Shown here piece after piece: positions 10,729-22,668 of a DNA stretch of 22,668 bases (the first letter of the stretch is position 1; each line of letters opens with the position of its first letter). The stretch is from a virus. Under the pieces are notes generated by a model. It worked only from the letters and a program-made list of their open reading frames with translations. It did no database searches and was not told the DNA's origin. The stretch covers positions 1 to 22,668 of IMG/VR virus record IMGVR_UViG_3300025543_000238. The stretch is one strand, 5' to 3'. The position numbers and the translations under genes were made by a program.

Positions 10729-13377
10729 ATGACTTTCTCGACAGACCAAAAACACAGGCTTCTATCTCGTATGGGTTATGCAGGTCCAGCGGGTGAAGAA
10801 GGTATGAAGAACTTCCTTCAAACTAACCCTGCTGCTGCTAAGAAGTTCCTAGCCTTTGATAAAGCTGTTGCTACTCTTAGTCAACCCCCTACTGCTTCTC
10901 CTGCTGCCCCTCAAGGCTTTGCTGAAGGTGGTGCTGTATACGATCCAAGACTGGTAGACCTTTATCAGACAAATTTTGGTCGCACACCTGAACAGGATAA
11001 GGCGGGTTTTGATTTCTGGCAGAATCAGATTAACAGCGGTTATGATATTAATCGGATTAAGTCTACTTTTGAAGCTGACCCTACTAACCTCTTAAATACT
11101 CAGAACACTACTACTACGAACAATGCTGGTACAGGATCTACTAGTACAAACACTGGAACGGCAGGGGTACAAACAGTACTCCCTGGTACTACTACAGGTA
11201 CTACTACAGGTACTACTACAGGTACTACTACAGGTACTACTACAGGTACTACTACAGGTACTACTACAGGTACTACTACAGGTACTACTACAGGTACTAC
11301 TACAGGTACTACTACAGGTACTACTACAGGTACTACTACAGGTACTACTACAGGTACTACTACAGGTAGTGTAACTCAACCTGATGCATATAAGACTGAC
11401 CCCAACTACACTAAAATCAACAAACTCTACGAAGATATTTTAGGTCGTCCAGTAGATGATGCAGGTGCTAAGTTTTGGGTGCAGCAGATGGGTTCTGGTT
11501 ATACAGAAGACCAGTTGAAAGCTAACCTTGAAGCAGAAGCTGCAAAGACTACTACAGGTGGAACTACAGGTAGTGTTACCGATTATTCTTCTGTATCTGA
11601 TGTCACTACCCTTCCTGACTACAGCACTTTGAACAATCTGTACTCTAAGTATTACGGTGCAGATAAACCACTTGATCTTGAAGGTGCTAAGTTCTGGCAA
11701 CAACAACTAGATGCTGGTTTCAAGCCCGAGGAAATGGAGAGGATCTTCAAGGAAACCGCTGAAGGTCAAGATTTCACAACCGAGATTACTACAAACGTAG
11801 AAAAGATTTTTAAGGACACTATTGGTCGTTTCACTGCAAACGATGTTGAGATGGAACCTTTTCGGGAGATGCTTCGTAATGGTTTTACCCCTGAGCAAGT
11901 CAGAGAAGAACTTCTAACTGATCCAAACTACTTTGGTGAGGGCTTTAACTCTCAGTACCTTAAATTGTATGGTATGTTGCCCTCTGAGGAACAAATTAAA
12001 GCATTCGAAGACTCGGGTGTACCTATTACTGACTGGGTGGCAGAGAAAGAGGGAGAGTTTAAAGACGCTGAGGATTCAATAACTAGAATCTACCGAGAGC
12101 TGTTCCAACGTAATCCAGACGAGGCTGGCCTAGAGTTTTGGATGAAACAGTTTCGTAATAATATGTCCCTAGAGGACATTGCTAATAAGATGGCTCAAGG
12201 TTCTGAAAGGCAGAATGTAGAGTACACAGACTTCCAGATGAACCAAGATCTTTTGAATGCTCAGAAGAAGATGGTTGCTGATGCTTATGCTGACCCTTCA
12301 GCTAATGTAACTACTGCTGATGTAGCTATGATGACTGAGACTCCGGGGACAATCATTGATCCTGCTACAGGACAAGTCACTGGTTCTCCCACTGTTGATC
12401 CTTCTCTGATCACTGACACTGCTACTGCAGACCTCCCAGAAAATACAGATACTAACACAGTAGACGTAACCAAGGTCTCAGATCAGGTACAGCAAGAGCT
12501 TAATGACCTTGAGGCGGCTAAGGGTACCGTATCTGAGTTAGGCACTGTACGGGGCCAGCTAGAGCTTCTCATGGAGGACTTTGAGAACGATGGTACTCCA
12601 CCATGGGCTTCGGGTGCTATGCGGGCAGCAATGTCTAAGATGAGTGCTCGTGGTCTTGGTGCTTCTTCTATGGCTGGTCAGGCTATTGTACAAGCTGCAA
12701 TGGAGTCTGCTCTTCCTATCGCCATGCAAGATGCAAGTACTACTGCTCAGTTCGAACTTCAGAACTTGACAAACGAGCAACAAACTGTTATCTTTAAGGC
12801 ACAGCAAAGGTTCGCTGGTATCTTTAGTGATCAAGCTGCTGAGAATGCTGGAAAGCAATTTAACGCTTCTAGTAAGAACCAGACTGACCAGTTCTTTGCA
12901 TCTTTGGAAGAGAGTGTTTCTCGCTTTAATGCCAGCCAGATCAATGCAATCAACAAGTCTAACGTAGACTCAGAGAACGCAGCTAAACAGTTTAATGCTC
13001 AGATGAAAGATATGCGTGACAGGTTTAATGCTACTAATAGTCTTGTCATTGCTCAGTCTAATGCACAGTGGCGTCAGAACATTGCTACTATTAATACTGC
13101 AACCCAGAACGATGCTAATATGGAAGCAGCTAAAACAGCTAATGCCTTCACTGGTGCAGCACTAGAACAATTGTGGCAGAGGGAGAGAGACCTTATGGCC
13201 TTTGCCTTTACCTCTTCTGAGTCTAGTCTTGATCGTGAAGTACAAATGCTACTGGCTGATAAACAGTTTGAACTCGCTCAGTGGCAACAAGGTAATGCAG
13301 AAGATGAAGCTAAGGGGTATATGGTAACCCAATTGGTCAGCAAAGCCTTTGATTTTGGTAAAGCTCTTTGGAGTTAA
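10729..13377 (+). CDS. Large internal virion protein with DUF4214 repeats
   Basis: 882 residues. After a helical start and a GFAEGGAV motif (63-70), there are about five DUF4214-like units (pattern LY...LGR.PD..G..FW..Q...G): near 71-112, 227-267, 298-340, 356-396 and 450-490. A pure (GTTT)15 linker (153-212) separates the first from the second. The C-terminal 280 residues are Ala/Asn/Gln-rich and helical with repeated KQFNA / RFNA units, like T7 gp14-type core proteins that are ejected into the cell. The ATG follows AAGGAA. It is the first of five consecutive internal-virion-type genes. DUF4214 domains also occur in bacterial surface proteins; their role here is unknown. Confidence 0.75.
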   Translation: MTFSTDQKHRLLSRMGYAGPAGEEGMKNFLQTNPAAAKKFLAFDKAVATLSQPPTASPAAPQGFAEGGAVYDPRLVDLYQTNFGRTPEQDKAGFDFWQNQINSGYDINRIKSTFEADPTNLLNTQNTTTTNNAGTGSTSTNTGTAGVQTVLPGTTTGTTTGTTTGTTTGTTTGTTTGTTTGTTTGTTTGTTTGTTTGTTTGTTTGTTTGTTTGSVTQPDAYKTDPNYTKINKLYEDILGRPVDDAGAKFWVQQMGSGYTEDQLKANLEAEAAKTTTGGTTGSVTDYSSVSDVTTLPDYSTLNNLYSKYYGADKPLDLEGAKFWQQQLDAGFKPEEMERIFKETAEGQDFTTEITTNVEKIFKDTIGRFTANDVEMEPFREMLRNGFTPEQVREELLTDPNYFGEGFNSQYLKLYGMLPSEEQIKAFEDSGVPITDWVAEKEGEFKDAEDSITRIYRELFQRNPDEAGLEFWMKQFRNNMSLEDIANKMAQGSERQNVEYTDFQMNQDLLNAQKKMVADAYADPSANVTTADVAMMTETPGTIIDPATGQVTGSPTVDPSLITDTATADLPENTDTNTVDVTKVSDQVQQELNDLEAAKGTVSELGTVRGQLELLMEDFENDGTPPWASGAMRAAMSKMSARGLGASSMAGQAIVQAAMESALPIAMQDASTTAQFELQNLTNEQQTVIFKAQQRFAGIFSDQAAENAGKQFNASSKNQTDQFFASLEESVSRFNASQINAINKSNVDSENAAKQFNAQMKDMRDRFNATNSLVIAQSNAQWRQNIATINTATQNDANMEAAKTANAFTGAALEQLWQRERDLMAFAFTSSESSLDREVQMLLADKQFELAQWQQGNAEDEAKGYMVTQLVSKAFDFGKALWS
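11185..11364 (+). repeat. Perfect 12-bp x 15 tandem repeat (Gly-Thr-Thr-Thr)
   Basis: The unit ggtactactaca repeats 15 times without a single mismatch (180 bp), encoding (GTTT)15. Because the unit is a multiple of three, gain or loss of units changes linker length without a frameshift. A degenerate echo (ACTACAGGTGGAACTACAGG) occurs near 11550. The antisense frames through this repeat are shadows. Confidence 0.97.
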
Positions 13378-14659: not shown

Positions 14660-15580
14660 ATGGGTTTCTTTCAAGGTGTAGCTAGGGCTTACGGTGAGAT
14701 TTCCGAAAGGAAAGAACGTGAGGGTGCTCGTAAAGAAGAGGTTGAACTTCGTAAGTCTGAGAGGGCTGAAGATAAAAAGGACAAACTAGAATTTTACAAG
14801 ATGCAGTTGGGTGATTCTAGGACTACAAAACTTCTTGAGTTAGAGGCTCAAAGGTTGGTAGCGCAACGTAAAGCTGAAGAGTACTCCTTAGCACCTTCAG
14901 CACTTAGATCCGTTCTAGGGGACTACGCAGAAACTCCTGCGGGTAAGTCATGGCTTAAAACTGCTGAACAGTACCCAGATGGGGCAAAACAGGCGTTAGA
15001 GATCTGGAATAGTAGTGATAGGGTGTACACACCCGAAGAGTTTGTTAACGGGATTACGATAGTTGGCTCTCCGGGTAATTCGGGTATTATTGAAATGCTA
15101 GATATTGAAAGTATTGATACCTCTGACCCAGAAGCATATGTGGATGCAATCGCTGGATTAACTCCACCAAGCCGACCTGAGTCTCAAGTTGTGATTGCAG
15201 GTACACTCAAAGATGAGTATGCCTCTCAAGAGGTTAAACTAGCAAGAGAGGAGTTTACTACTACTGCTCAAGAGCTTGCTATGGAAAGTCTATCTCACCT
15301 AGAAGGTTTTGAGAGAGAGAACCACCCTGTGCAGAAACTGTTAAATATTGCTTCCAATGGGGATGAGTCAGCAATTTATAAGATAAATAGGATGTTTGCA
15401 GCACCAGCAGCAGAACGACTACAGGATAGCCCGTATTTTCCTGCTATTAGTTCATTACCCCTTGTAGATGCTGGGATGGAAGACCAAGTTTACTTAAAAC
15501 TAATTAATAGTGGCAAGCTTAAACAAGATAGAGTTGATAGATTGAAGGCAGAGAGACCTTGGTTGTTTGAAAGGTACTAA
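14660..15580 (+). CDS. Coiled-coil internal virion protein
   Basis: 306 residues. The N-terminus MGFFQGVARAYGEISERKER leads into a highly charged coiled coil (about 20-75, ERAEDKKDKLEFYKMQL), then a mixed helical region and a C-terminus ending RPWLFERY. The start is two bases after the previous stop with no strong ribosome site, so coupling is expected. Position among five large virion genes suggests a core component comparable in role to T7 gp15, but no sequence motif proves it. The last bases overlap the upstream region of the next gene's GTG start. Confidence 0.55.
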   Translation: MGFFQGVARAYGEISERKEREGARKEEVELRKSERAEDKKDKLEFYKMQLGDSRTTKLLELEAQRLVAQRKAEEYSLAPSALRSVLGDYAETPAGKSWLKTAEQYPDGAKQALEIWNSSDRVYTPEEFVNGITIVGSPGNSGIIEMLDIESIDTSDPEAYVDAIAGLTPPSRPESQVVIAGTLKDEYASQEVKLAREEFTTTAQELAMESLSHLEGFERENHPVQKLLNIASNGDESAIYKINRMFAAPAAERLQDSPYFPAISSLPLVDAGMEDQVYLKLINSGKLKQDRVDRLKAERPWLFERY

Positions 15581-15581
15581 A

Positions 15582-18500
15582 GTGGAAGAAGAACTTAGCG
15601 AAGAAGATAAAATCTTTGATAAGATGATGGGCATAACTAGTGACCCCTTAAAAGAAAGTACTGAAGTTACTCCACTGGCAGAAGAACTTAGCGAAGAAGA
15701 TAAAATCTTTGATAAGATGATGGGTACAGCTTCTGAAGGGAATACGGGAACTGCACTTGATGATCTCCCCATGGTTGAGGAAGAAGAACTCAGCGAAGAA
15801 GATAAAATCTTTGATAAGATGGTGGGTAGTAGCCCCCCTAAAAGAACTCTATCGTCAGAACCAGTAGATTCTCTTGTCACCTTTGATGAAGAGGGTGCTC
15901 CTGTCGTCAATGCAGAGTCTTACTCTGAGAATGACTTTAAAGACCCTGCATTCTACAAGGTTATCAAAGACTACATGGTGTCTCGTAAGGGTACCCATAT
16001 TAACGAAATGGATCAGGATGAGGTGATTAACCTTTACCTGAATAATATGCGTGGTTTTGCCTCAACTAACACCGTTCGTGTAGCAAGTGAATGGGCCTTC
16101 CTTAATGGTGCTGAAGGTGAGGACATGAAGAATGCCCAGAAAGCCTATGCACTCTACCATAATATGGAAGGGGTCTTTGGGGACACTACCCTGCGTGAGA
16201 AGGCTGGTGCAGTGGGGGATATTCTCAGGTCTGTTGTGTTTGACCCAGTAAACCTTCTAAGTCTTGGTGTGGGTAAAATAGTAACTTCTGGGGGTCTTAA
16301 GGTTGTCTCTGAGACCGCTCAAATTGCAGCCAAACAATCATTTCAAAAGGAGTTGATTAAGACTGGTTCAGAAAAGCTTGCTATTAAGGCTGCAGGGAAA
16401 ATCTTTGCAGAAGAGTCTTCAAAGTTTACAGCTAAGAAAGTTGCTGATCTAGCTAAACGAGTGGCTTTCGAAGAATCTATTAAGGGTAGTGTAACTAAAA
16501 AGGTTTTGAATAGTACTGCACTTAAAGAGATTGTGGCTGTTGGTACTTTTGATGGACTAGCTGCTGCTGGTGCTGACTATGTTTATCAAGATTCTATGCT
16601 TCGTACAATGGTACAGGACGAGTACTACCAAATGAATACTGGTATTGCTGCTATTGGCTCTCTTGTAATGATGGGTGGCATTGCTGCAGGTGGTAAACTT
16701 CTAAAGAAGGGTGCGGCTGTTGGACCAGAGGCTATAAAGACTGACCCTAAAGGAGTGAGACTCTCTGAACTTCAATTTGGTAAGAAGGTAAAGACTGGCA
16801 AGAAATCTAAATCTCCTAAGAGAACAAACTACCCAAAGAATAAAGACTACCCCGAAGATCAGATGGAGATAGGTGCAGACTTTTGGGTTAGATTCTTGCT
16901 TGGAAACGACAAGGATGGTACATCTGGGTTGGCTCAGTCTTTGCTAGAGCAGGGTTATGGTTTTAGGAAAGTTGATAAGGACGACCAGATTACTAAGTGG
17001 TTGGCTGATACAATTAAAGAAGCTGACCCTAAAGAGTTTCGAGGTATGATGGGCAACCTTAAGACTTACCTTGGTGGTGACCTTGGTAAATTTAAAGGGA
17101 TGACTCAAAAAGATTTTGCTAAAGAGTTTCGTAAAAGTTACTCTAAGGCGGGGGAGAAGTTTCGTGCTGCTGGTATCACTTCTCACATGCTTGGAGAGAA
17201 TATTGAGAAAGTAACCCTCAGCGAGTTCCTTGATTTGACTATCAACGGGAATAAGGTTGTGAGGGGGACTAAAGTAGAGAAGGCTGTAGGTGAAGGTAGT
17301 AACTGGTTGGCAACTAGGTTGGGTGCTCCTGAAGGCACAATTCAAGGTATCCAGAACAGGCTTATTCGTCTGCTGGTAACTAACCCATCTACCACAGCTT
17401 TGAACATCAAAGGTTATGGTGTTGCTTCTACCATGAATAGTTTCTCTGATATTACCATTGCTGCTCTCTTGAATCCTGCACAAATGATGGTAGGAAAGAA
17501 GTCAAAAGCAGAGGTAGTTAAGGGATTGAAAGATGTTTGGCACAATACCATTTACAAACTAAGAAATACTGTTGATGCAAACACTACTTTTGATGAGTTC
17601 CAAATGTACGCTCAAGCTAGACCGGGAGCTATGAAAGAGTTGCTAAGAGTCCATCCCGGTGGTGTGGAGGATCTCTCTAAAGTAGTAGATGGCATGGATC
17701 TGAACAAGACTATCTTAGGCTCTAAGACTGACGAGTTTATTGATTTCGCACAACTACTAACTGGGGTGACTGCACAAGACAGTTATACCAAGTCTATTGA
17801 ATTTCTGACTCAGATGGATAAGAACCTCCGTAAACACTATGGCAAGGGCTACAGTAAGTTTATGAGGGAGTCAGATGCAAGGTCCATAATGGCTACTAAA
17901 GAGTTTGCTATTATTGAAGCTAAGTCAGTTGACGACACGATGAAGACTATCTTCTCTAAGTCTCATAAAGGCCCTACTCCTGTGGGTCAGGTTGCTGGGT
18001 TTATTGAGGATATGCGTCAAATCCCCGGACTTGGTATGCTTGTACCTTTTGGTCGTTTCTTCAACAACACTATGGCCTTCTTTGCAGATAACTCAGGTTT
18101 GTCTTTAGGGCTTAGGGTGTTAGGGAAGAGCAACCTCACCACTTCTAATGAAGAGTTGATAGCAAGGGCTATGGTCACTGCTACTGGTATTGCCTTCTTG
18201 GTCCCAGAGGAAGAAAGAGCTATTGATCTAGGATTGTCTGTCTTCCAGAAACCAGATGACACAGGTGCAGTGACTGATAGCACTTATGACTTCCCTTATG
18301 GGGCAGCTAAGGCTCTTGCACGTTTGGTTGCACACAAGAAGCGTGGAGAAGCCCCTCCCGGTGAAGTCACTGCTATGATCCGTGATCAATTCCTTACTCA
18401 GGTTACACGTAACGTAGATGCTAGTGGTAAATCCATAGTAGAATTTATTGACGCTGCTCTGGGTGCTGAAGGTGATGATGTACTAGGGTTGTTGTCTGCT

Positions 18501-19193
18501 ATGGCGGGTAAAGTTACGTCTCAAAGTGTCAGTGCTGGTACACGTTTCTTGGACCCAATTAATGCTGCTGTAGGCCTTGCTCGTGGTGAAGACTACAAAC
18601 TTCCTGATCGTAACCAAGGCAATAAGGTGATGAATGACTCCTTCAAGTATATGGATCAGATCATCATGTCTCTGGGTATTGCGGATTACCCACAGAAATT
18701 TTCTCGGACACAGGGTAAACCTGACATACAAGCTACTAAATTTATCTCTACTGTGAGGGAACAAAGGCCATCTAGTCTTGACCGTGTGTATAATCTTATG
18801 GGTATTCCAACTTGGAAGGCTCGTGTTCAGATACAGGATGCTAAAGGCAAGAACCGCTACAATGAACTCTTTAGTAAGTTAAATGAAAGAAGTGCAGAAA
18901 TTCTTCTAAAGAATGACAGGTTCAGGCAGGGTGATGAAGAGGAGAGAAAACTAATCTTTGATGAATTTGCTAAAAAGAATGTCCAACGTGTAAAGACTGT
19001 TATGTCTAGAGATATTGATCCCGGAGATAGAGAAGCCCTACTTCGTATGGAGATTGAAGGTACGGGGAACCTTCTCACAAGAAAGAATGTTATGGATGAG
19101 TTAGGGTTTGATGACTTGTCTGATCTTTCTTACTATGAGTTGAAGACTATTAAAGATGCTCTGGACTCTCGTAAGTGGACTAAGCGTAGATAA
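15582..19193 (+). CDS. Very large internal virion / ejection protein
   Basis: 1203 residues from GTG 15582, chosen because GAAAGG lies 7 nt upstream; a TTG at 15567 would add five residues. Three copies of a 15-residue motif (EELSEEDKIFDKMMG and variants) fill the first 82 residues. There follow long helical regions, a hydrophobic Gly/Ala/Met segment (about 350-370, IAAIGSLVMMGGIAAGG), a Lys/Pro-rich linker (about 400-425), and another hydrophobic stretch (about 813-840, GLGMLVPFGRFFNNTMAFF). Size, composition and position as the last gene of the late module match the large ejected core protein of T7-like phages (gp16, 1318 residues), but no lytic domain is visible here; that activity is on the gene at 13388. 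Confidence 0.7.
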   Translation: MEEELSEEDKIFDKMMGITSDPLKESTEVTPLAEELSEEDKIFDKMMGTASEGNTGTALDDLPMVEEEELSEEDKIFDKMVGSSPPKRTLSSEPVDSLVTFDEEGAPVVNAESYSENDFKDPAFYKVIKDYMVSRKGTHINEMDQDEVINLYLNNMRGFASTNTVRVASEWAFLNGAEGEDMKNAQKAYALYHNMEGVFGDTTLREKAGAVGDILRSVVFDPVNLLSLGVGKIVTSGGLKVVSETAQIAAKQSFQKELIKTGSEKLAIKAAGKIFAEESSKFTAKKVADLAKRVAFEESIKGSVTKKVLNSTALKEIVAVGTFDGLAAAGADYVYQDSMLRTMVQDEYYQMNTGIAAIGSLVMMGGIAAGGKLLKKGAAVGPEAIKTDPKGVRLSELQFGKKVKTGKKSKSPKRTNYPKNKDYPEDQMEIGADFWVRFLLGNDKDGTSGLAQSLLEQGYGFRKVDKDDQITKWLADTIKEADPKEFRGMMGNLKTYLGGDLGKFKGMTQKDFAKEFRKSYSKAGEKFRAAGITSHMLGENIEKVTLSEFLDLTINGNKVVRGTKVEKAVGEGSNWLATRLGAPEGTIQGIQNRLIRLLVTNPSTTALNIKGYGVASTMNSFSDITIAALLNPAQMMVGKKSKAEVVKGLKDVWHNTIYKLRNTVDANTTFDEFQMYAQARPGAMKELLRVHPGGVEDLSKVVDGMDLNKTILGSKTDEFIDFAQLLTGVTAQDSYTKSIEFLTQMDKNLRKHYGKGYSKFMRESDARSIMATKEFAIIEAKSVDDTMKTIFSKSHKGPTPVGQVAGFIEDMRQIPGLGMLVPFGRFFNNTMAFFADNSGLSLGLRVLGKSNLTTSNEELIARAMVTATGIAFLVPEEERAIDLGLSVFQKPDDTGAVTDSTYDFPYGAAKALARLVAHKKRGEAPPGEVTAMIRDQFLTQVTRNVDASGKSIVEFIDAALGAEGDDVLGLLSAMAGKVTSQSVSAGTRFLDPINAAVGLARGEDYKLPDRNQGNKVMNDSFKYMDQIIMSLGIADYPQKFSRTQGKPDIQATKFISTVREQRPSSLDRVYNLMGIPTWKARVQIQDAKGKNRYNELFSKLNERSAEILLKNDRFRQGDEEERKLIFDEFAKKNVQRVKTVMSRDIDPGDREALLRMEIEGTGNLLTRKNVMDELGFDDLSDLSYYELKTIKDALDSRKWTKRR
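15588..15826 (+). repeat. Triplicated 44-bp repeat at the start of the largest virion gene
   Basis: Copies at 15588-15631, 15681-15724 and 15783-15826. The first two are identical over 44 bases; the third differs at two positions. They encode EELSEEDKIFDKMMG (third copy KMVG). The sequences between copies (49 and 58 bp) are unrelated to each other. Confidence 0.93.
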
Positions 19194-20373: not shown

Positions 20374-20390
20374 GGTGAATTATACCACAT
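20370..20390 (-). other. Possible 6-codon leader peptide overlapping the next start
   Basis: On the - strand AAGGGG (20403-20398) lies 7 nt before ATG 20390, opening the frame MWYNSP and a TGA that overlaps the next ATG as ATGA. It could couple translation of the following 65-residue gene on read-through mRNA. The same bases contain the -10 box, so this may be coincidence. Confidence 0.25.
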
Positions 20391-20408
20391 AATAATACCC
20401 CTTGTCAA
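20379..20408 (-). promoter_or_regulatory. Promoter with perfect sigma-70 hexamers inside the leftward operon
   Basis: On the - strand the -35 is TTGACA (20408-20403) and the -10 is TATAAT (20384-20379), both perfect, with an 18-bp spacer. A TGG just before the -10 gives an extended TGn element. The -35 overlaps the phoH stop codon. Start of transcription is predicted at about 20372, on or next to the ATG of the following gene. Confidence 0.85.
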
Positions 20409-21889: not shown

Positions 21890-21929
21890 TTAATGTTATA
21901 TCAAACGTACACTAAGCGGGTTAATGTTA
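21890..21929. repeat. 9-bp direct repeats at the end of the endonuclease gene
   Basis: TTAATGTTA occurs at 21890-21898 and 21921-21929. The second copy contains the stop codon of the HNH gene. They could mark the edge of an inserted element but could equally be chance in AT-rich sequence. Confidence 0.4.
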
Positions 21930-22472
21930 CGTCAAGTCAACAATCTCGCAGCTATCCCCTGATACGAGTTTGCAGAGGTGTATAAAGTACTCTTGTGAGT
22001 AAGCTCTTTTCATCATATTTATATCCTTATGTAACCACTGTACATTGCCTTCGACATAACCTTTAGAGCTGTCTATGCGGTCAAGAGAGGCTGTTTTGTC
22101 ATAGATGCTGATTGGTAGTCCTGAGAGTGCACAGTTTCCACGCTGTACCTTGTCTAAGAGGTTAGAAGCAAATTCAATAGTAAGGTTAAATTCTATAGGC
22201 TTCCTACCTTTACTTCCCTCAGAACCTCGTTTTACAGAGGTAAAGTACGTGGATGATACCGTCCCATGACCTTTCCAATTCTTGTGACCACCTTTCTTAC
22301 ATCCACAAGAGATAGTTTTCCCGCCAATAAGGTGCGTACCTAGTACAGTCTTCTCATTACCACAGATACATCTGACGCGGTATCGGTAGTGACCATTCCT
22401 TGAAACCTCCGATACCCCTAGAACAGTAAGGGTACCGAAAGTTTTTCCTTCTAAGGGCTTCTTACGTCCCAT
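21927..22472 (-). CDS. HNH homing endonuclease with an RNR-like C-terminal tail
   Basis: 181 residues. The N-terminal GKTFGTLTVLG is the start common to many phage free-standing HNH enzymes. Two zinc pairs follow, CIC (C35/C37) and CGC (C56/C58). The nuclease part contains CALSGLPI (114-121) and ASLDRIDSSKGYVEGNVQWLH (split: ASLDRIDSSKGY and VEGNVQWLHKDINMMK, about 128-155). Family members usually end soon after the FIHLCK helix; here eleven more residues, SGDSCEIVDLT, match the C-terminal tail of the upstream reductase. The ATG overlaps the RNR stop by one base (TAATG). No group I intron core or intein splice motifs are visible. It probably cleaves RNR genes lacking the insertion. Confidence 0.85.
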   Translation of the reverse strand: MGRKKPLEGKTFGTLTVLGVSEVSRNGHYRYRVRCICGNEKTVLGTHLIGGKTISCGCKKGGHKNWKGHGTVSSTYFTSVKRGSEGSKGRKPIEFNLTIEFASNLLDKVQRGNCALSGLPISIYDKTASLDRIDSSKGYVEGNVQWLHKDINMMKRAYSQEYFIHLCKLVSGDSCEIVDLT

Positions 22473-22668
22473 TAAATATCCACGATTTCACAGCCAGTGT
22501 CACCACTACAGGCCATCGTCTGCATACCAGAGGTGTTATCTTCTACTTCATACTCACTCAACTTAGACCAATCAATATTCTTTGGCATACTCAATAGTAA
22601 CAGATCATATGCCTCTTTGTCAATCTCTTGATAGGGTGCTTGTTGATAAGTGTGTTCACTATAAGGTA
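22472..22668 (-). CDS. nrdJ: Ribonucleotide reductase, probably class II (adenosylcobalamin-dependent), C-terminal end only
   Basis: The last 65 codons of a gene that continues beyond the right edge. The segment PYSEHTYQQAPYQEI, then MPKNIDWSKLSEYE, and the terminal ACSGDTGCEIVDI match the C-termini of phage and bacterial class II ribonucleotide reductases as I remember them; the last cysteine pair passes electrons to the active site. The class call rests on this tail alone and could be wrong; the protein is an RNR in any case with high probability. Class II enzymes need vitamin B12, which the host would have to supply. The spacing of the cysteines (C-x5-C) is one longer than the C-x4-C of E. 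coli NrdA (CESGAC). The HNH gene starts on its stop codon. Confidence 0.8.
   Translation of the reverse strand, partial: PYSEHTYQQAPYQEIDKEAYDLLLLSMPKNIDWSKLSEYEVEDNTSGMQTMACSGDTGCEIVDI

Follow-up and report, generated by a model that had tools for sequence, protein, structure and literature searches.

At the 3' end of a ribonucleotide reductase gene (nrdJ) of a virus, an HNH endonuclease gene begins on the reductase stop codon and ends in a second copy of the reductase tail, which encodes a common protein in other codons. How did two such tails come to stand at one locus, and which of them is native? The window, i.e., the whole stretch of DNA analysed here, is a 22,668-base record of a marine virus, and the locus lies on its minus strand at the right end, where the order is nrdJ end, HNH open reading frame (ORF), small ORF, glutaredoxin and phoH. 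The nrdJ 3' end (22472..22666, minus strand) is cut by the contig end and encodes 64 aa of a class II, adenosylcobalamin-dependent RNR (NrdJ). It was identified by tblastn against B12-dependent RNRs annotated in phages (Lentibacter phage ICBM2, 73%) and by NCBIfam TIGR02505, whose match is weak on the 64 aa of the window and reaches 1.2e-31 on the sister locus L002, which is without the HNH gene. The resident tail of nrdJ, C-SGDTG-CEIVDI followed by the stop codon (22472..22510, minus strand; cysteine spacing C-x5-C), has identical DNA in L002. The HNH ORF (21927..22472, minus strand; 181 aa) overlaps the nrdJ stop by one base of its ATG (TAATG), and a second nrdJ tail, SGDSCEIVDLT followed by the stop codon (21927..21962, minus strand), recognized by its matches to native tails, is fused to the C-terminus of the HNH protein. 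Compared with L002 by blastn, identity was 96.4% up to the nrdJ stop and 93.0% from window position 21898 downwards, and the window carries an insert of 573 nt that starts immediately past the nrdJ stop (21899..22471, minus strand). Two copies of AACATTAA lie just behind the HNH ORF, within about 30 nt of its stop (window 21899-21935), and L002 is without the stretch that separates them. A donor was sought for the 30 nt that follow the HNH-borne tail in the window, and no convincing match was obtained.

Elsewhere in the window and its relatives, another HNH gene (of the DHIDGDKTNNHPDNL type) follows phoH in two sisters that are without the HNH gene at nrdJ (L002, 2381-2947; L003, 4494-5051) and is missing at the corresponding place of the window, near 20374-20404; the stretch therefore has more than one mobile endonuclease site. 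An 882-residue ORF (window 10729-13377) contains a long TGTT amino-acid repeat run near its N-terminal third. A 1208-residue ORF (window 15567-19193) opens with three copies of the ELSEEDKIFDKMMG repeat and yielded no Pfam match.

A sequence-only reading of the locus had pointed out that the CEIVD of the two tails is identical in protein and different in every codon. This is correct: codon by codon, the reductase reads TGT GAA ATC GTG GAT (window 22492-22478, minus strand) and the HNH ORF TGC GAG ATT GTT GAC (window 21950-21936, minus strand), and all five codons differ at the third base, which excludes a recent identical duplication in the window, as had been argued. (Note that the locus L094 comes close to an identical duplication, with only 1 of 4 synonymous codons differing between its tails.) The common stretch is slightly longer than CEIVD (SGD..CEIVD), and outside CEIVD the tails are not identical, the reductase ending in C-SGDTG-CEIVDI and the HNH protein in SGDS-CEIVDLT. 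Among pairs drawn from 77 distinct CEIVD cores of HNH-less nrdJ genes, 115 of 2926 (3.9%) differ at all five codons, and nine of the 77 cores differ in this way from the window's HNH-borne tail; the five-codon pattern taken alone is therefore weak and mildly unusual. The presence of an nrdJ tail at the end of an HNH protein is a real signal, beyond chance.

The window HNH protein matched phrog_374 (HNH endonuclease, 1.1e-23) and phrog_3322 (3.6e-20). Its AlphaFold model has a pLDDT of 82.7, with residues 173-181 below 50, and the top Foldseek match of the model is the HNH nicking endonuclease 4h9d (probability 1.0, E 7.7e-3); the protein is accordingly modelled with an HNH-type fold. Weak links to Endo VII were also seen (phrog_1035, 2e-11; 1e7l among the Foldseek matches), and a sequence search of the PDB gave no useful match. 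The stretch DRID...NVQWLHKDxNMMK is largely invariant across 15 family members. In the window protein, no canonical first histidine of the HNH motif is evident, the position reading R (LDRID), and its catalytic activity is therefore putative. A working role of the borne tail within the HNH protein was considered and rejected: the tail is disordered in the model, truncated in L088 and absent from the HNH relatives L083, L290 and L292. By its disorder and its loss in some members, the displaced tail looks like a passenger.

Phage RNR genes are common hosts of introns and inteins (PMC3653736), and the locus might be read as a self-splicing intron (group I or II) or an intein. We regard this as extremely improbable, and the self-splicing intron was rejected: no Rfam group I or II match was obtained at E values up to 1, an intron core would find no space, since the HNH ORF starts right on the nrdJ stop, and the frame of the reductase is complete by that point.

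Relatives were gathered from viral contigs, with the nrdJ end and the HNH protein as queries. This yielded 14 non-redundant close HNH-positive loci, each with the HNH gene immediately downstream of nrdJ; L289 and L290 came in addition. A tail copy closes most HNH proteins of the family (SGDSCEIVDLT, SGDACEIVDLT, GGSCEIVDLT and others). Distant HNH relatives also sit behind other NrdJ types, and those of L099, L293, L294, L300 and L303 end in copies resembling the tail of that reductase itself. The L099 gene follows an nrdJ with a long tail, and its 48% identical HNH protein (1587-2258) ends in a diverged copy of this whole, much longer tail. In L216, the stop of an nrdJ with C-x3-C spacing is followed immediately, at the same site, by the start of another HNH-like ORF (about 37% identical). 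The cellular genomes searched contained one distant HNH relative, which is without the tail. No cultured phage with the arrangement was seen among the HNH matches listed, whose neighbourhoods were not opened singly.

The distribution of the HNH gene is patchy. Alleles with and without it occur at one conserved site (the window and L002), and it is present in 14 of 203 loci. On the nrdJ tree (203 rows), the 14 HNH-positive loci require 14 changes, which is not below the 13.7 of shuffled labels, and at least five of the 14 changes are forced by strongly supported (starred) branches. The nrdJ and HNH trees also conflict: the former unites L082, L083, L084 and L086 (support 97/97), a clade which was picked after the trees had been seen and which the HNH data reject (p-AU 0.0018), whereas the latter places the window and L088 together with L082 and L083. 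From the scattered presence and the conflict between the trees it follows that the HNH gene moves separately from nrdJ.

Which tail is native was addressed with ten pairs of HNH-positive and HNH-less sister loci, the expectation being drawn from the 100 codons upstream. The borne tail differed from the sister tail in 11 of 45 synonymous codons (11.1 expected), whereas the resident tail differed in 31 of 51 (13.1 expected, P about 5e-8). For the window, L084, L086, L088, L092, L094 and L097, one and the same HNH-less locus ranks as closest, or as one of the closest, in upstream nrdJ and also in the borne tail together with the downstream DNA. The clearest pair is L092 and L211, which share TGTGAAATCGTGGACCTGACCTGATG: L092 has native DNA in its borne tail and flank, and its resident tail is rewritten and one codon shorter. 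In class II enzymes the cysteine pair of the tail reduces the active site, and the cysteine spacing varies (PMC9669993). Atypical spacing was found in 10 of the 14 HNH-positive loci and in 8 of the 197 HNH-less loci, a count that ignores relatedness; on the five strictly supported independent pairs, the association is a one-sided trend that is not significant (median p 0.25). Across the family, these comparisons show the HNH-borne tail to be normally the displaced native tail and the tail on the reductase to be a rewritten substitute, often with altered cysteine spacing.

The reading that we hold to be highly probable is that a mobile, free-standing gene of the homing HNH type inserts at the 3' end of nrdJ and displaces the native tail, leaving the reductase with another one. 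The HNH enzyme would cut the intact native tail of an HNH-less nrdJ (such as C-SGDS-CEIVDLT, the L023 or L050 type), at a site predicted to fall within SGDSCEIVD-L, and repair from an HNH-positive genome would bring the HNH gene into the cut gene. The native redox tail would be shifted to the far side and then be translated as the C-terminus of the HNH protein, and the reductase would keep or receive another tail, of different DNA, immediately ahead of the HNH ATG. The tails of a locus would then have different histories, and for this reason have the protein in common and not the codons. Each tail would depart from the intact native target in spacing, in codons or by a missing left half, so that neither should be recut. 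In the window, the resident tail would be that of the nrdJ lineage comprising the window, L002 and L003, and the borne tail would be of the SGDSCEIVDLT type, native elsewhere; it would have come with the HNH gene or, if L002 and L003 lost that gene, be the lineage's own displaced older tail.

Rewriting of the resident tails might also be a mere result of long separate evolution, the native tails being kept alike by recombination and no selection acting against cutting. We hold this to be less likely than not, though one result speaks for it: resident tails were not significantly more different from the borne partner of their own locus than from others (P 0.18, 0.14), the differences within loci not lying above those of permuted pairs (0.71 vs 0.65 in the latter test). 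Against it, the upstream nrdJ of the same loci differs from the sisters at no more than 42% of synonymous positions, compared with 61% in the tail, and altered cysteine spacing is not neutral third-base drift. Recoding for self-protection, which the sequence-only reading had offered as one explanation of the five codons, is plausible for the family and fits the 31 of 51 rewritten codons and the atypical cysteine spacing; for the window itself, no specific recoding is demonstrable, because the HNH-less L002 bears the same tail DNA.

In the window, the sister test departs from the usual polarity, with 0 of 6 synonymous differences between the resident tail and the sister and 5 of 5 for the borne tail. 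The resident tail is identical to L002 over 48 nt and 94% identical to L003 (35 nt); L003 (84%) also has a C-x5-C tail and is also without the HNH gene. The borne tail matches the native tails of L023 (32/33 nt) and L019 (29/30), the upstream nrdJ of L023 being only about 66% identical to that of the window. The other explanation given earlier for the codons, that the tails come from two diverged RNR lineages, is supported by this comparison of RNR tails from related phages, in which the borne tail matches natives of another nrdJ lineage. (Note that the L023 match does not stand alone: about 28% of native tails have a 26/27 counterpart in some distant lineage.)

Two histories would account for these tails. 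According to the first, to which we give an even chance, the resident tail is native and the HNH gene was imported with its fused tail from an SGDSC-tailed lineage, no recoding having occurred here. L002, with the same tail DNA, and L003, with the same spacing, both without the HNH gene, agree with this, as do the L023 and L019 matches, weakened by the frequency of such matches, and the 77-78% identity of the window HNH protein to those of L082 and L083, whose nrdJ genes are only 58-67% identical. Against it speak the C-x5-C spacing, which is otherwise unseen among the 197 HNH-less loci and resembles a substitute tail, and the sequence that follows the L002 tail: TTAACGTAGCATTAA agrees in 13 of 15 positions with TTGACGTAACATTAA, in which the borne tail of the window ends, and lies out of the nrdJ frame, as an excision scar would. 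According to the second history, which we rate somewhat short of even, the HNH gene invaded the ancestor of the window, L002 and L003, where the tail was rewritten to SGDTGC, and L002 and L003 later lost the gene and kept the tail. The out-of-frame L-T-stop relic directly after the L002 tail would then be a remnant, atypical spacing marks HNH-positive loci as counted above, and HNH-less hybrid alleles occur in two more clades (L008, near L084, and L217, near L094). Two losses are required, however, L003 shows no scar, and a 2-nt insertion in a naive L002 allele accounts for the relic equally well; TTAACGTAGCATTAA could be either, and L002 may be an allele that lost the HNH gene. If the second history is true, the reductase tail of the window would be a self-protecting substitute, as had been proposed.

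A wider reading, which we put forward tentatively and with less than even confidence, is that the HNH family has made the NrdJ redox tail an exchangeable cassette: invasions would leave a recoded, often re-spaced tail that cannot be cut, and escape from cleavage, not enzyme chemistry, would drive much of the variation in spacing. The tail variants of the HNH-less L002, L003, L008 and L217 would then be scars of past invasions. In viromes, the history of such endonucleases may lie behind differences among NrdJ tails. Independent copies together with HNH-less sisters allow invasion, tail rewriting and probable loss to be traced base by base, and offer a testable system in which a selfish endonuclease keeps its host gene functional while shielding it against recutting.

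Among known systems, the phage endonucleases of the F-CphI/Endo VII type likewise lie near a conserved target gene, but the window protein has no evident counterpart of their DHDH and flanking CX2C pattern, and no tail copy is reported for them (PMC6083498). The mobE genes of T4 and Aeh1 encode HNH homing endonucleases of the free-standing kind and lie at RNR genes of class I (PMC2988022). They have in common with the window an HNH gene beside an RNR gene, a one-base overlap of stop and start (UAAUGA in T4) and HNH-less alleles; unlike the window HNH gene, mobE sits between nrdA and nrdB or splits the Aeh1 nrdA into two working subunits, and neither a copy nor a replacement of a tail is reported (PMC2988022). 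The window gene is probably a free-standing homing endonuclease like mobE. Replacement of C-termini is known from the fungal mitochondrial mORFs (Allomyces atp6; Glomus atp6, atp9, cox2 and nad3), in which an endonuclease ORF lies near the 3' end of an essential gene that has two C-terminal copies (PMC3630166). As here, the gene carries one copy and the other follows the endonuclease, close relatives match the displaced copy, and DNA identity between the copies is low and protein identity high (63.5% and 91% in Glomus atp6; PMC3630166). The combination of a native displaced copy with a foreign or rewritten gene copy was found for the ten pairs as a set and not for the window, whose sister matches the resident copy instead of the displaced one. 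The displaced tail is moreover translated here as the endonuclease's own C-terminus, in contrast to the mORFs. These are LAGLIDADG or GIY-YIG endonucleases in mitochondria, whereas the present gene is an HNH type on a virus contig, with the redox tail of a class II RNR as its probable target; it thus acts as an mORF does without being one. No report of tail displacement in a phage was found in the open-access literature (subscription papers were outside the scope of the search). C-terminal displacement by homing endonucleases is known from fungal mitochondria; the present family shows it again in phages, on an essential enzyme.
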